From Oscillospiraceae bacterium (GTDB lineage Bacteria > Bacillota > Clostridia > Oscillospirales > Acutalibacteraceae), in the NCBI GenBank assembly GCA_003499325.1, contig DNIP01000168.1:1-11650 (forward strand): 11,650 bases of DNA, in the 5' to 3' direction. This document shows, piece by piece, positions 2,976-11,599 of the stretch. The position numbers and the translations under genes were made by a program. How positions within the stretch are numbered: the first letter of the stretch is position 1; the number at the start of each line of letters is the position of its first letter. The notes beneath the pieces were generated by a model. That model was not told the origin of the DNA. It did not search any database and was given only the letters and a program-made list of their open reading frames with translations.

Positions 2976-2995
2976 ACATAAAGGAGATGAGAAAC

Positions 2996-5650
2996 ATGAG
3001 TATATTCCGCTGGGACAGAGGAGATAACAAGGATAAATCCGACGGTATCATCGAGCTGCCTGTCGATCATACGGCAGAGGACGAGCTGACCGATATCAAT
3101 GAAGCGGCATACGACTCATCCTCACAGTCTCTCGACAACAAGATGGAGGAGATCTACTCCACAAAAGATAAACAGGTGAAATTCCGCCGCCACCAGCCGC
3201 TCGAGGAAGAAGCGGCGGCACGGCGCAAGGAGGTCACCAAGGACGAGCTGATCCGCGGCAAGCTGGAGTTCAGCATACCCGAGAAGATCAACGCGCCCGA
3301 GGTCAAGCTCGAGCCGGAGCTCGATCCCAACGCCACCATCGCCGAGGATATCATCGAGGACGTGGTGGACGTCAAGAAGCTGCGCAACATCTATGTGCAG
3401 GATATCGACGACATCGACGTCAGCCTCGATCCCGCACAGGCGCCCGAGAAGCCTGAGCATCCCGCGGAGCATCATGAAGCCCGCCCCTCCAAGAAGCCGT
3501 CACAGCCCTACACGCCCTCGGGCGATACGATCGTGGAGACCATCCCCGTGTATCAGCATGAGGAGAGCGTGAATAAGCTCTATCTCAAGGCGGGTCGCTT
3601 CACCGAAGTGGTCGAAAGCGAATACGACGAATATCTCAAATCCACCGACCCCACCATCTCGGGGAATTATCACGCGACCAAGCCGATGGTCAGACCGCAC
3701 CAGAGCCTGCTGTATACCCTCACGCAGATTGCCGCGCGTCACAAGACCGAATCGGCACAGAAGCAGAAAAACAAAGAGATCATGCGCAACAACTTTGACG
3801 AAGAAGCGCCCAAGCCCAAGAAAAAGAAGCGCTCGCGCGTCACAAAGTTCTTCCGTGTGCTGGGCGCCGTCATCTCCTCGGGCATCACCACACCGTCCGA
3901 GGACGAGCAGATGCGCTCGATGGATTACAGCAACAACGAGGACGAGCAGTACATCTTTGACACCATCCGCCAGAATATCAAGCGGCAGCTCACCCATCTG
4001 CTGCTCGCGCTGCTGATCGGCATCGGTATGCTCGGACTGACGATCTGGGAGCGCATGGCAGGCGCGGCGACCGTCGCCGCTAACGGCGCGGGAACCGCCT
4101 TCACCTTCTGCGGGCTGTACCTGATCCTCACCTTTGCGCTGGGACTGGTGGCGCGTCACACCCTGATCGACGGACTGAAACCGTTGGCACGCTTTAAGTT
4201 TAATTGCGGCACCGTGATCTCGCTCGCGTATATCGCGTGCTTTTTACAGTGCCTTGTGTCCCTCTTTACCTGCACCTCCTTTGTCGGAGGCGACCACCAT
4301 CTGTACAGCTTTGTCGTGGCATTCGCGCTGATTCTCAACGCCACGGGCAGACTGCTGATGGCGTTGAGGGTCAAGAGCAACTTTAAATTCATCAGCGCAC
4401 ACTCCCCCGCCTATGCGGCAAAGATATATGACGACGTAGAAACAGCGCGCAGGCTGGTCAGCGGCACGACCTCCTCCAAGGGGATCATCGCCTATCAGCA
4501 TGTCACCCGCTTTTTATCGGACTTTTTGAAAATCTCCTACGCGCCCGACCCGAGTGAGGAGCTCACCGGCAAGATGGCGCCGATCGCGATCATCAGCTCC
4601 CTCGTCGTCACCATCCTCTACGCGATCATCTTCAAGAGCGTGCAGGGCGCGGTATCGGCGCTGACGGTCATGCTGTGCATCGGCATCCCGTTCACGGGTA
4701 TGCTCGCGGGCAACCTGCCCATGCTGCTGTTCAGCCGCAAGATGCTGCGCGAGGACGCGATGGTAGCCGGCTATCCGTCGGTTCGCCAGTTCTGCGACAC
4801 CAACGCCGTCATGTTCAACGCCACCGACCTCTTTCCCAACGGCTCCGTCAAGCTCGAAGAGATGTACCCCCTGCAGCAGTACAGGATCAGCGAGAACCTG
4901 CTGCTTGCCACCGCGGTACTGCGGGAGGCAAATTCGCCCATTGCGCCGGTCTTTGACGAGCTGGTGATGGAATACAACAATGTCCTGCCCTCCGTCGAGA
5001 GCGTCATGTACGAGGACAAGAGCGGCGTGGTCGGCTGGATCAAGGGCGAGCGCATCCTGATCGGCAACATGAAGCTGATGAACCGCTACCACATCACCAT
5101 CCCCACCACCGATATCCCCTTCAAGAAGCGCGGCGGCAATCTCGAGATCGCGTATGTCGCGGTCGCGGGACAAGCGGTCGCGGTGCTGGGACTGTCCTAT
5201 GAAGCGCCGGATCCCCTCAAAACGCAGATCCGGCGCGCCGAAAAAACCGGTCTTTCGTTCATCGTGAGCACCACCGACGCCAACATCACCCCCGAGCTGA
5301 TCGCGACCCGTTACGAGATCTTCTACCGTTCGGTCAAGGTCACTGCGCCGGGCTACTCCAACGTCATCGATGAAGCCACCGAGAAGGTGGAGGAGGCCTC
5401 CCGCGCCTATGTCGCGACGCGCGGCCGCATCGGCTCGCTGGCACGCGCCGTGGGCGGCTGTATCAGCGTCAAGTCCAACATCAGCCTGGGTATCGTCATC
5501 GAGATCTTCGGCATGATACTGGGTATCCTGCTGAGCGCGACCCTCGCGCTGTACGCCTCTGTAGCACGGCTGTCGATCGTCGAGCTGCTGATCTACATCG
5601 GCTTCTGGGTCGCCGCGACCCTTATTGCCGAGCTGGTCAGGCGACCATAA
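2996..5650 (+). CDS. P1-type ATPase-like membrane pseudoenzyme with a long acidic N-terminal tail
   Basis: An 884-residue protein. Residues 1-330 are a charged, mostly acidic, low-complexity cytoplasmic tail ending with a basic patch (KPKKKKRSR, 273-281). Membrane segments follow at about 332-352, 366-388, 405-430, 436-457, 527-548 and 551-579, then a 245-residue cytoplasmic part, then 830-856 and 862-881. The 4+2+2 pattern is that of P1B ATPases. P565 in CIGIP stands where the membrane CPC proline would be. Exactly 43 residues later comes AVMFNATDL, matching VFDKTGT but with the phosphorylated Asp as N608. The N-domain-like KSGVVGWIKGERILIGN (to N691) and hinge DPLK (739-742) are kept, and TTDA (759-762) stands for TGDN. 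P785-G-Y-S replaces PxDK; GDGxND is absent; the 70-residue loop 457-527 has no TGE. It should therefore not pump ions by the normal cycle. A sensory, scaffold or regulatory role is a guess. Start: AAGGAG (2981-2986) is 9 nt before ATG 2996; an ATG at 2987 abuts the ribosome site. Confidence 0.7.
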   Translation: MSIFRWDRGDNKDKSDGIIELPVDHTAEDELTDINEAAYDSSSQSLDNKMEEIYSTKDKQVKFRRHQPLEEEAAARRKEVTKDELIRGKLEFSIPEKINAPEVKLEPELDPNATIAEDIIEDVVDVKKLRNIYVQDIDDIDVSLDPAQAPEKPEHPAEHHEARPSKKPSQPYTPSGDTIVETIPVYQHEESVNKLYLKAGRFTEVVESEYDEYLKSTDPTISGNYHATKPMVRPHQSLLYTLTQIAARHKTESAQKQKNKEIMRNNFDEEAPKPKKKKRSRVTKFFRVLGAVISSGITTPSEDEQMRSMDYSNNEDEQYIFDTIRQNIKRQLTHLLLALLIGIGMLGLTIWERMAGAATVAANGAGTAFTFCGLYLILTFALGLVARHTLIDGLKPLARFKFNCGTVISLAYIACFLQCLVSLFTCTSFVGGDHHLYSFVVAFALILNATGRLLMALRVKSNFKFISAHSPAYAAKIYDDVETARRLVSGTTSSKGIIAYQHVTRFLSDFLKISYAPDPSEELTGKMAPIAIISSLVVTILYAIIFKSVQGAVSALTVMLCIGIPFTGMLAGNLPMLLFSRKMLREDAMVAGYPSVRQFCDTNAVMFNATDLFPNGSVKLEEMYPLQQYRISENLLLATAVLREANSPIAPVFDELVMEYNNVLPSVESVMYEDKSGVVGWIKGERILIGNMKLMNRYHITIPTTDIPFKKRGGNLEIAYVAVAGQAVAVLGLSYEAPDPLKTQIRRAEKTGLSFIVSTTDANITPELIATRYEIFYRSVKVTAPGYSNVIDEATEKVEEASRAYVATRGRIGSLARAVGGCISVKSNISLGIVIEIFGMILGILLSATLALYASVARLSIVELLIYIGFWVAATLIAELVRRP

Positions 5651-5819: not shown

Positions 5820-6470
5820 ATGTTAATTGCACCATCCCTGTTATCCTGTGATTTTTCCGTGTTCCGCGACGAGATCGTCCGTATCGATCAAGGCGGCGCG
5901 GATATCATGCACCTCGACGTCATGGACGGTCACTTTGTGCCGAACCTCACCTTTGGCGCGCCGGTCATCAAAAAGCTCAGAAAAGCGACCGAAAAGCCCT
6001 TTGACGTCCACCTGATGATCAGTGAACCGCACCGCTATATCAACGATTTTGCCGACGCGGGCGCGGACATCATCTCCTTCCACACCGAGTCCGACAGCGA
6101 CATTGACGAGACCCTGAAGCTGATCGAGGCGCGCGGGATCAAGCCCGCCCTCGCGATCAAGCCGGGCACCGCGCCCGATATCGTCCTGCCGTATCTCGAC
6201 AGGCTGTACATGGTGCTGGTGATGACGGTGGAGCCGGGCTTCGGCGGACAGAGCTTTATGCCCGATATGATGGAGAAGGTCACCTTCCTCAAAAAAGAGA
6301 TCAAGAGCCGCGGGCTCTCCACCCTGATCGAGGTGGACGGCGGCATCGCCAAGGACACCATCGCCACTGCCGCAAAGGCGGGCGTGGATATCTGCGTCGC
6401 GGGCACGGCGGTATTCGGCGCACCCGACGCGAGGGAAGCGATCGCCGAGCTGCGCGGACTGTGCGAATAA
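5820..6470 (+). CDS. rpe: Ribulose-phosphate 3-epimerase
   Basis: A 216-residue TIM-barrel enzyme of normal length. It interconverts D-ribulose 5-phosphate and D-xylulose 5-phosphate in the cytoplasmic pentose phosphate pathway. The family signatures are all present: APSLLSCDF (4-12), HLDVMDGHFVPN (31-42), DVHLM (62-66), MTVEPGFGGQSF (about 137-148) and EVDGGI (171-176). The metal-binding set is H31, D33, H64 and D173; D33 and D173 are the two catalytic acid/base aspartates. GTAVFG near the C-terminus is the phosphate-binding segment. The start is clear: AAGGAG (5806-5811) lies 8 nt before the ATG. In many Firmicutes rpe follows prpC-prkC-rsgA; here the P-type ATPase-like gene is upstream instead, separated by a terminator and a palindrome, so the two are probably transcribed separately. 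A bidirectional terminator follows. Confidence 0.96.
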   Translation: MLIAPSLLSCDFSVFRDEIVRIDQGGADIMHLDVMDGHFVPNLTFGAPVIKKLRKATEKPFDVHLMISEPHRYINDFADAGADIISFHTESDSDIDETLKLIEARGIKPALAIKPGTAPDIVLPYLDRLYMVLVMTVEPGFGGQSFMPDMMEKVTFLKKEIKSRGLSTLIEVDGGIAKDTIATAAKAGVDICVAGTAVFGAPDAREAIAELRGLCE

Positions 6471-7216: not shown

Positions 7217-8329
7217 ATGATCATCAAACCCGATAAAAAGGAATGGCTGCTGCGCTGGCCGATCTCGGATGCACCGCGTCAGACCGCCCTGCAAAGAATT
7301 GCGGCGGAGCATGATTTTCTGCCGCAGAACAGCTGTTTTTTCAGCCCGACAGCCTGCTGTGTCGCGGCGGCGCTGAGCATGAGCGCCGAGGATGAAAAGC
7401 TGTTGCGCGATAATCTGAGCGCCTTGGGCTACGGCGACGTCATCACAGCGGCGTATCAGAATTCCGAGCGCGATAAGGCCGGCATGTGTATCGGGAGCCG
7501 CATCAGGGAAAACCGTTTGCAGGTCGCCGTCGTACTGCGCAGCACCTCGGGCGACGAATGGTACTCCAATTTCGAGGTCGGCTATTCCGCCGAGCACAGC
7601 GGCTTTGCGAAGGCGGCGGACTATGCGGAGCTCAGGCTCGGCGACTATGTATTCACTCACGCCATCGGGATGGAGCCCGAGTTCTTTGTGACAGGCTACA
7701 GCCGCGGCGGCGCCGTCGCCAATATCCTCGCAAAGCGATTATGCGACCGCCATGGGCTGGAGCGCGTCTGCGCCTATACCTTCGCCTCGCCCTCCACCAC
7801 GCTCAGCCGCCGCACCAATCGCTACAACTGCATCTTCAATCTTGTGCGGCAGGAGGATCTGTTCGCCCGCGTGCCGCCGGAGGGCTGGGGCTACACCAAG
7901 TACGGCAAAAACATCTCGCTGTCGGATGCGGGCGATATAGCCGCGCGCTTTCGTCAGCTCACGGGCGAAGATTACATCGGCTTCACCCGTCAGCGACCCG
8001 TGGACAGCTTCATCGGCGCTGTCTATGACCTTGCGCCGAATGTCAATGCCTATTACCGCCGTCGCAGGCAGGTCGGCGACCGCAAGCTGAGTCTCTATGA
8101 ATTCATGATCTCATTCGCGCATATGCTGTCGCGGAACATGGATGACGCCGCCGCGGATATTGTCCTCTCGGCGATGGCGTCTGACTACGCCGATCTGCTC
8201 AACTTTTTGTCGAGCGGGGCTGATCTGAACGACCTGACCGCGCCCGCGAACGGGATCCCGCGGTGCAGTATCGCGGACAGCCACTCCCCCGCCGCCTACA
8301 TGGCTTCTCTGGACAGGGTCTTGGGGTGA
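7217..8329 (+). CDS. Class-3-lipase-like alpha/beta hydrolase (DUF2974/Mbeg-like)
   Basis: A 370-residue hydrolase with no signal peptide, so probably cytoplasmic. The nucleophile elbow is G160-Y-S162-R-G164 followed by GAVANILA, the standard G-x-S-x-G lipase/esterase motif. Before it, AVVLRSTSGDEWYSNF and EHSGFAKAA match the oxyanion-loop and HxGF regions of class 3 lipases, with RST in place of the usual RGT. Afterwards AYTFASPSTT and VRQEDLFARVPPEGWGYTKYG match the segment that carries the acid, pointing to D214. SHSPAAYM near the C-terminus supplies the likely histidine, H356. The substrate (acyl ester or peptide) is not evident. The start at 7217 follows GGAGGG (7207-7212); an in-frame ATG at 7205 overlaps that ribosome site. 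The last 34 bases overlap tail to tail with the MecA-like gene on the other strand. Confidence 0.8.
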   Translation: MIIKPDKKEWLLRWPISDAPRQTALQRIAAEHDFLPQNSCFFSPTACCVAAALSMSAEDEKLLRDNLSALGYGDVITAAYQNSERDKAGMCIGSRIRENRLQVAVVLRSTSGDEWYSNFEVGYSAEHSGFAKAADYAELRLGDYVFTHAIGMEPEFFVTGYSRGGAVANILAKRLCDRHGLERVCAYTFASPSTTLSRRTNRYNCIFNLVRQEDLFARVPPEGWGYTKYGKNISLSDAGDIAARFRQLTGEDYIGFTRQRPVDSFIGAVYDLAPNVNAYYRRRRQVGDRKLSLYEFMISFAHMLSRNMDDAAADIVLSAMASDYADLLNFLSSGADLNDLTAPANGIPRCSIADSHSPAAYMASLDRVLG

Positions 8330-8832
8330 CAACCGTTCAAAAGGATAGCGCCGTGCTCCCGAATCCGTGCGAAAACCGCGTCGCTCACGGGGTACAGCTC
8401 ACCGTATTCACTCAGGCGCGCCGTCATATCCGCCGTCACAGAGCCGCAGGGCAGGAGGATGTACCTGCCCTCATAGGTATAGACGGTATAGCCGCCCTGC
8501 GGTCGCGACTGCCAAAAGTCCAGCATCGCGTCAGCGTCGAAGAACACGCAAAGCTCACGCGCCTGACTGCGCTTGATGCGGAACTTTCTGCGACGCTTGA
8601 CGGTATGCACCGAGATGATCAGCAGACAGCCCTTGTTCGTCGGAAGCGCCTCGATCAGATAGCTCTTGCCGCGGTGATCCAGTCCGCAGATCTCCCCCAC
8701 GCGGCAGAGCAGATCCTTCAGCCCCGACTGTATTTTGTCGGTGCTGCCGTCCAAAGAGAGCGCATACCGCCGCATATCCCCCTCACCGAGGGACACCAAT
8801 ATCGTCTTTTCCCCGATCATCTCAACCGTCAT
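8296..8832 (-). CDS. MecA-like adaptor protein (negative regulator of genetic competence family)
   Basis: A 178-residue protein that I place in the MecA/YpbH family by overall pattern. The N-terminus (MTVEMIGEKTILVSLGEGDMRRYAL) and the segment SYLIEALPTNKGCLLIIS resemble the MecA N-terminal domain, which recruits substrates. A basic linker (KRRRKFRIKRSQ, about 80-91) follows. The second half, ELCVFFDADAMLDFW to ARLSEYGELYP and REHGAILL, resembles the C-terminal domain that binds the ClpC unfoldase. In Bacillus MecA targets ComK and other proteins to ClpCP. This copy is shorter than the roughly 220 residues usual there and lacks the acidic linker. The ATG at 8832 is preferred because GAGG lies 7 nt upstream; a GTG at 8838 is only 1 nt from it. 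The client is unknown, and family membership is moderately sure. Confidence 0.65.
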   Translation of the reverse strand: MTVEMIGEKTILVSLGEGDMRRYALSLDGSTDKIQSGLKDLLCRVGEICGLDHRGKSYLIEALPTNKGCLLIISVHTVKRRRKFRIKRSQARELCVFFDADAMLDFWQSRPQGGYTVYTYEGRYILLPCGSVTADMTARLSEYGELYPVSDAVFARIREHGAILLNGCHPKTLSREAM

Positions 8833-8855
8833 ACGCACACCTCATATCTGAATCC

Positions 8856-11415: not shown

Positions 11416-11423
11416 GCACCCTC

Positions 11424-11582
11424 ATACTAAGTATCATTAAAACACTTTAACATTTAATGCGATAAATTCCGCATAGCGGTGTTGTCGTCCTTGACATACG
11501 CCAGTATGCCTGCGTCCTCCGCCTTGCTCTGCGAAATTTCTCGCTAACAAATTTGTTAAAGCGTTTAATGGATACTTAGTAT
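11424..11582. mobile_element. 159-bp MITE-like imperfect inverted repeat
   Basis: The ends are perfect 12-bp inverted repeats (ATACTAAGTATC at 11424-11435, its complement at 11571-11582). They extend with few changes to 11452 and 11554 (ATTAAAACACTTTAACA against CATTAAACGCTTTAACA). Homology between the arms continues inward (GCGATAAATTCCGCATAGC against GCGAGAAATTTCGCAGAGC) to a tip CATAC-GCCA-GTATG at about 11497-11510. The whole unit can fold as one long hairpin. It has no reading frame, so any transposase would act in trans. TA dinucleotides at 11425-11426 and 11580-11581 would fit a TA target duplication as in the IS630/mariner group. Confidence 0.65.
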
Positions 11583-11599
11583 AACAAACCACATCAAGG

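Follow-up and report, generated by a model that had tools for sequence, protein, structure and literature searches.

The stretch of DNA analysed here (the window) comprises 11,650 nucleotides of contig DNIP01000168.1, from an Oscillospiraceae bacterium whose order we take to be Oscillospirales. Directly downstream of rlmB it carries a gene for a large membrane protein related to P1B-type metal ATPases, referred to below as the pseudo-P1B-ATPase. Features lie on the forward (+) strand unless stated otherwise. The open frame spans 2987-5650, and we place the start at the conserved Met at 2996, giving a coding sequence at 2996-5650 of 884 residues plus stop; this Met, the fourth residue of the 887-residue frame, reaches at least 90% conservation across an alignment of 48 sequences. 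A Pfam scan gave no match up to E = 1, and the best NCBIfam model, TIGR01525 (heavy-metal P-type ATPase; E 2.1e-10), scored 40.1 bits and did not reach its curated cut-off of 346.25. Among solved structures, the copper ATPase 3rfu is closest in sequence (E 1.3e-10). Homologues in databases are unnamed, are called hypothetical proteins or, in two cases, are called cation transport ATPases.

The predicted structure of the protein is a P1B ATPase fold, rather than one unrelated to P-type ATPases, with membrane helices in the 4+2+2 layout that the original prediction had proposed. A 19-residue hydropathy scan agrees, marking a first group of segments at residues 332-350, 368-386, 406-424 and 439-457, a second at 528-546 and 552-570, and a third at 829-847 and 859-877. 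These eight were chosen among overlapping scan positions with guidance from the structure model, which puts another segment marked by the scan, 716-734, in the nucleotide-binding (N) domain. The four leading helices, presumably equivalent to MA, MB (with an amphipathic platform), M1 and M2 of P1B ATPases, occupy residues 314-468 (3935-4399). They are followed by a shrunken actuator domain (residues 473-518; 4412-4549), which lacks about 50 residues including TGES and holds a highly conserved KISYAPD sequence. M3 and M4 (residues 519-585; 4550-4750) contain P565 (4688-4690), within a CIGIP sequence that replaces the CPC motif. An N-like domain spans residues 616-736 (4841-5203), and M5 and M6 span residues 812-880 (5429-5635). 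In the model, the N-domain appears well formed and intact, and the phosphorylation (P) domain appears reduced.

To locate catalytic positions we used an hhalign alignment of 98 of the 105 family rows with 26 P1B ATPases (probability 99.9, E 8.8e-34, 627 columns). Two of the targets come from the genome of the window (L001, which heads the target alignment, and L002) and 24 from other genomes of the class, and all of them carry DKTG, TGE and GDGxND. In this alignment P565 lines up with the CPC proline (P390 of L001), and N608 with the phosphorylated Asp (D433), so that NATDLFP (residues 608-614; 4817-4837) stands at the DKTGTLT site. The original prediction, which read NATDL at this site, identified the membrane proline in CIGIP, and took the 43-residue distance from P565 to N608 to equal that in CopA (P383 to D426 in the Legionella enzyme), is borne out on each point; P390 and D433 of L001 are likewise 43 residues apart. 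The alignment leaves out roughly 50 residues of the actuator domain, TGES among them, and roughly 28 of the P-domain, which take GDGxND with them. The residue opposite the P-domain Lys is Y787. These three elements are thus gone, as had been claimed, and position 787 varies (E, L, T, R and others) among 115 homologues fetched from genomes of the order beyond the genus of the window (hereafter, the order homologues).

Two other claims fared less well. A DPLK sequence (residues 739-742) had been proposed as the hinge, but the hinge Asp of P1B ATPases (D565 of L001) instead faces Y735, which is Tyr in 103 of the 115 order homologues; D739 is Asp in only four. The assertion that every catalytic motif has been lost holds for DKTGT, TGES and GDGxND, but T759, D761, G677 and G690 remain. 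The first two belong to a TTDAN sequence (residues 759-763; 5270-5284), in which they align with the T and D of the P-domain TGD motif; Thr is present at 759 in 70/115 order homologues and Asp at 761 in 111/115, and the Gly is T760 in the window.

The losses extend well beyond the window. GDGxND was found in none of the 115 order homologues. An orthologue with DKTGT, which would mark recent decay, was looked for, and DKTG was found at the phosphorylation site in none of the same 115 sequences and in none of 201 close-homologue rows (80 genome loci plus 121 database rows, the window among the latter, with some duplicates). Only two of the order homologues contain a DKTG string anywhere (G199 and G257), in both cases in the tail. 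We likewise rejected as a live site the DKTG of L199, a relative in family f19, because its place in the chain, residue 237 of the frame, is away from the phosphorylation site.

Position 608 is not invariant, contrary to one expectation that we checked: among the 201 close rows it is N in 61, S in 57, D in 39, T in 13, K in 11, R in 6, P in 5, E in 5 and another residue in 4. The adjacent position, 609, is A in 185 and S in 16. The 43-residue spacing does hold, in all 200 close rows that have the Pro. We read the variability at 608 as agreeing with catalytic loss, though 39/201 rows keep Asp. Among the 115 order homologues, 608 is Asp in 28, 609 is Asp in 83, and 611 is Asp in 72 or Glu in 28. 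Most of the order thus has an acidic pair close to where the first P-domain strand ends, and the first Asp of this pair has been lost in most of the clade of the window; either 608 or 609 is a candidate structural match to the phosphorylation site in the Asp-bearing members.

The gene has been maintained by purifying selection. Ratios of nonsynonymous to synonymous substitution rates (dN/dS), calculated by the Nei-Gojobori method, are 0.05, 0.12, 0.10 and 0.12 against the close orthologues L008, L010, L013 and L041, and 0.20-0.30 against six more distant ones (L014, L016, L022, L025, L030 and L031); synonymous sites are saturated against L035. These values support the constraint that the full-length frame had suggested, and few parts of the gene are as constrained as the pseudo-actuator region. 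The protein therefore combines an enzyme fold that has lost catalytic residues with evidence of purifying selection, which are the features expected of a pseudoenzyme.

Homologues are present in nearly every sampled genome of the order. With matches accepted up to E = 1e-3, an initial search was positive in 57 of 59 related genomes, and within the genus of the window 34 of 36 genomes gave a strong match, one a weak match and one none. A profile search then found a full-length homologue (at least 257 bits) in 142/147 genomes of the order, including that of the window, representing 85 of 88 sampled genera. Five genomes gave no full-length match (G267, G203, G232, G290 and G255). In one of these, G203, the contig ends within a frame that carries the tail motif and begins directly after rlmB; this frame was assigned by place and motif, and the family profile gave it no score. 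In the genus of G290, three of six genomes have a homologue. The family is confined to the order in both broader samples. In a class-level sample, all six genomes of the order were positive and none of 141 others was, the best outside score being 131.7 bits over a region common to true P1B ATPases. In a phylum-level sample the counts were 2/2 and 0/147, with a best outside score of 124 bits (two of these 147 genomes are also in the class sample).

The gene is also nearly always paired with rlmB, which encodes a 23S rRNA 2'-O-methyltransferase and lies at 2036-2797 in the window (TIGR00186, 252.2 bits against a cut-off of 160.15). In a test that left out 28 of the 142 homologue-bearing genomes, rlmB was upstream on the same strand, no more than 1.5 kb away, in 122 of 128 loci; in each of the remaining six, fewer than 60 bases of sequence precede the open frame. 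Counted by distinct genomes of the order, rlmB is just upstream in 109 of 115, and the sequence ends there in the other six. The gap between the genes has a median of 21 bases, is at most 100 in 114/122 loci and is negative in 22, although these sizes are approximate, as they use the earliest start available past the rlmB stop region. We also looked for a conserved operon beyond rlmB, and no other neighbour cluster listed occurred in more than five of 21 order-level loci.

The protein begins with a cytosolic tail (residues 1-280; 2996-3835) that is predicted to be mostly disordered, with predicted local distance difference test (pLDDT) values mostly below 60. It had been described as a 330-residue acidic tail. 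A tail is indeed present at the N-terminus, with low confidence over residues 1-280, but its charge is mixed and only weakly acidic, with 65 D+E against 50 K+R in residues 1-330. Within it, two motifs are strongly conserved among the 121 database rows. MEEIYST (residues 50-56; 3143-3163) has six of seven residues invariant, with Y54 at least 90% conserved, and KAGRFTEVVESEYDEYL (residues 198-214; 3587-3637) has ten invariant columns between A199 and L214. The conserved stretch in close homologues centres on KAGRF..VVE.EYDEYL. In other families, stretches resembling FSxDDILAEF are frequent near the N-terminus; in the model of the L107 protein this stretch forms a short helix (16-22) within a low-confidence region. 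A looser scan, limited to the first 200 residues of each open frame, picked up a comparable stretch in 52 of 116 sequences, not including the window. A DNA pattern for DDILAEF had eight matches in 39 genomes, and for this exact pattern they revealed no docking motif shared with other proteins: five lie inside family members by coordinates (G206, G219, G041, C6 of G048, and G045), and the remaining three look like chance once read. Short conserved motifs in a disordered tail suggest docking.

Starting from what is directly observed (homology and predicted fold, motif loss, selection, distribution across the order, and synteny), we favour as the more probable interpretation that the protein descends from a P1B-type metal ATPase, is catalytically dead and acts in the membrane as a scaffold or sensor. 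That it does not pump is well supported. Two catalytic loops are lost, not one residue, which makes pumping very unlikely, and the loss of the phosphorylation site, the actuator loop and the magnesium (Mg)-binding GDGxND loop should make the P-type phosphorylation cycle impossible. The gene is under constraint, is found almost throughout the order and is consistently paired with rlmB, all of which points to a real function; this is probably an important one, though not pumping. A role as scaffold or sensor is moderately supported, and a link to RlmB weakly. In the mechanism we propose, the protein retains from its metal ATPase ancestor the eight-helix membrane body, together with a P-domain that is reduced and an N-domain that is well formed, but neither the phosphorylation site nor the two catalytic loops. 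The disordered tail, through its short conserved motifs, would dock a cytosolic partner, and the N-domain together with the residual TxDxN pocket may bind a ligand or protein that sets the conformation. RlmB, or ribosome maturation near the membrane, would be the foremost candidate partner because of the near-constant gene pairing.

Several observations weigh against this interpretation. Asp is found at 608 or 609, or both, in 101/115 order homologues, and the T and D of TGD are mostly retained among them, so some ligand, Mg or HAD-like chemistry may be possible outside the clade of the window. The putative interaction with RlmB is drawn from gene order, which can reflect shared expression only. 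Finally, four genomes (G232, G290, G255 and G267) lack both a full-length homologue and an RlmB above the cut-off. We had considered this joint absence as a sign of functional linkage and dropped it, since completeness values predict that approximately 5 of 147 genomes would lack any given locus through incomplete assembly.

The strongest competitor is that the protein is a ligand sensor or transceptor, in which the N-domain and TxDxN pocket bind a nucleotide or other phosphorylated ligand and thereby move the membrane body or the tail; what sets it apart from a plain scaffold is that a sensor requires a small-molecule ligand. The N-domain fold is intact in the model, and the GERILIGN sequence (residues 684-691; 5045-5068), which had been called N-domain-like, aligns accordingly, with G690 conserved in 115/115 order homologues and N691 also retained in the window. 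G677 is kept in 112/115 and D761 in 111/115. However, the His of the HP motif is S647 in the window, with the Pro retained as P648, and no order homologue has His there. The first Gly of the GxG motif is K675 in the window, although it is still Gly in 34/115. We regard such a sensor as a possibility worth keeping in mind, with the balance tilted against it.

It is less likely that the protein is a passive channel, a lipid conduit or a subunit of another transporter, using the P1B membrane path without ATP hydrolysis. The membrane body is retained, as is the M4 proline, P565, in 87/115 order homologues and 200/201 close rows. However, both Cys of the CPC site are replaced in the window, which reads I564-P565-F566, and Cys is rare at these flanks across the order (5/115 at 564 and 3/115 at 566). 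The lack of a recurrent neighbour besides rlmB also argues against a transporter subunit or conduit.

We consider it improbable, by a wide margin, that the protein is an active enzyme with altered chemistry, in which a DxD at 609/611 in most order homologues works as it does in other HAD proteins. Asp occurs at 609 in 83 of the 115 order homologues and either Asp or Glu at 611 in 100, and the Asp of the L107 protein (432) sits just past the first P-domain strand. Yet GDGxND is absent throughout, the P-domain Lys position is not conserved, and the clade of the window mostly has neither Asp. The idea of a recently decayed or mis-assembled P1B ATPase gene has only the motif loss in its favour, and we reject it on the dN/dS values and on the full-length homologues in 142 genomes. 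Of the readings considered, the best fit is a scaffold or sensor that docks a partner through its tail.

Compared with P1B-1 copper ATPases such as CopA (3rfu, 4bbj) and ATP7B (7si7), the pseudo-P1B-ATPase shares the eight-helix 4+2+2 body, the M4 proline, the P- and N-domain fold and the 43-residue spacing, but it lacks DKTGT, TGES, GDGxND, CPC and the HP His, and has an actuator of only about 45 residues and a long disordered N-terminal tail. Its score against the P1B family TIGR01525 is far below the curated cut-off. L001 and L002 have common ancestry with it but carry DKTG, TGE and GDGxND.

A second pseudo-P-type ATPase, which likewise has neither DKTG at the site nor GDGxND but belongs to a Mg/Ca-type branch, lies just upstream of rlmB at two loci, L103:9554-11761 (-) and L110:4015-6408 (+). 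The L103 protein (family f19) matches TIGR01524 (E 8.7e-18). Among 78 genomes of the order searched, its clear full-length relatives are in f19 only (G053, G254 and G228), with weaker f19 matches near the gene in G213 (sequence read) and G241 (coordinates only). We therefore set it aside as a universal partner.

Other genes and elements were noted around the locus. Downstream of the pseudo-P1B-ATPase gene is rpe, encoding ribulose-phosphate 3-epimerase (5820-6470; above its curated cut-off), whose cluster occupies this place in loci of the genus only. At five of the 21 order-level loci (L096, L103, L108, L111 and L116) an EF-G-like gene follows, so that there the pseudo-ATPase is flanked by two translation-related genes; elongation factor G domains were found in L096, and the other four were assigned by clustering. 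Upstream of rlmB, a DUF6512 membrane protein (1368-1922; E 5.7e-16) belongs to a cluster found in 68 loci, none of them order-level. A MecA-like protein is encoded at 8299-8838 on the reverse (-) strand (PF05389, E 1.6e-9). An intergenic inverted repeat at 737-897 has 40-base arms that are 80% complementary and 81 bases apart. Another, at 11424-11582, has 29-base arms that are 86% complementary. The region 11420-11590 has 64 matches in its own genome (both strands counted), 16 of which (itself included) cover at least 125 of its 171 bases, and several lie at contig ends; it looks like a small mobile repeat.

P-type ATPases are known as pumps, flippases and related active transporters. A literature search, whose coverage did not extend to most subscription journals, turned up neither a comparable inactive or pseudo P-type ATPase nor a link of one to rlmB, which is weak evidence of novelty. 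If our interpretation is correct, a clade without catalytic loops, nearly order-wide in gut bacteria and held in a fixed gene pair, would constitute a large and apparently undescribed pseudoenzyme family. More speculatively, and with less confidence, a P-type ATPase that no longer transports might be a core regulator in the membrane on which the whole order depends. In this view it would have stayed tied to rlmB ever since the order arose, with the ion-pump fold rebuilt as a scaffold or sensor connecting ribosome maturation with the membrane. The family would make testable the question of how a pump fold can be used without pumping, and would supply a hypothesis for a core gene that present sources leave unnamed or hypothetical.
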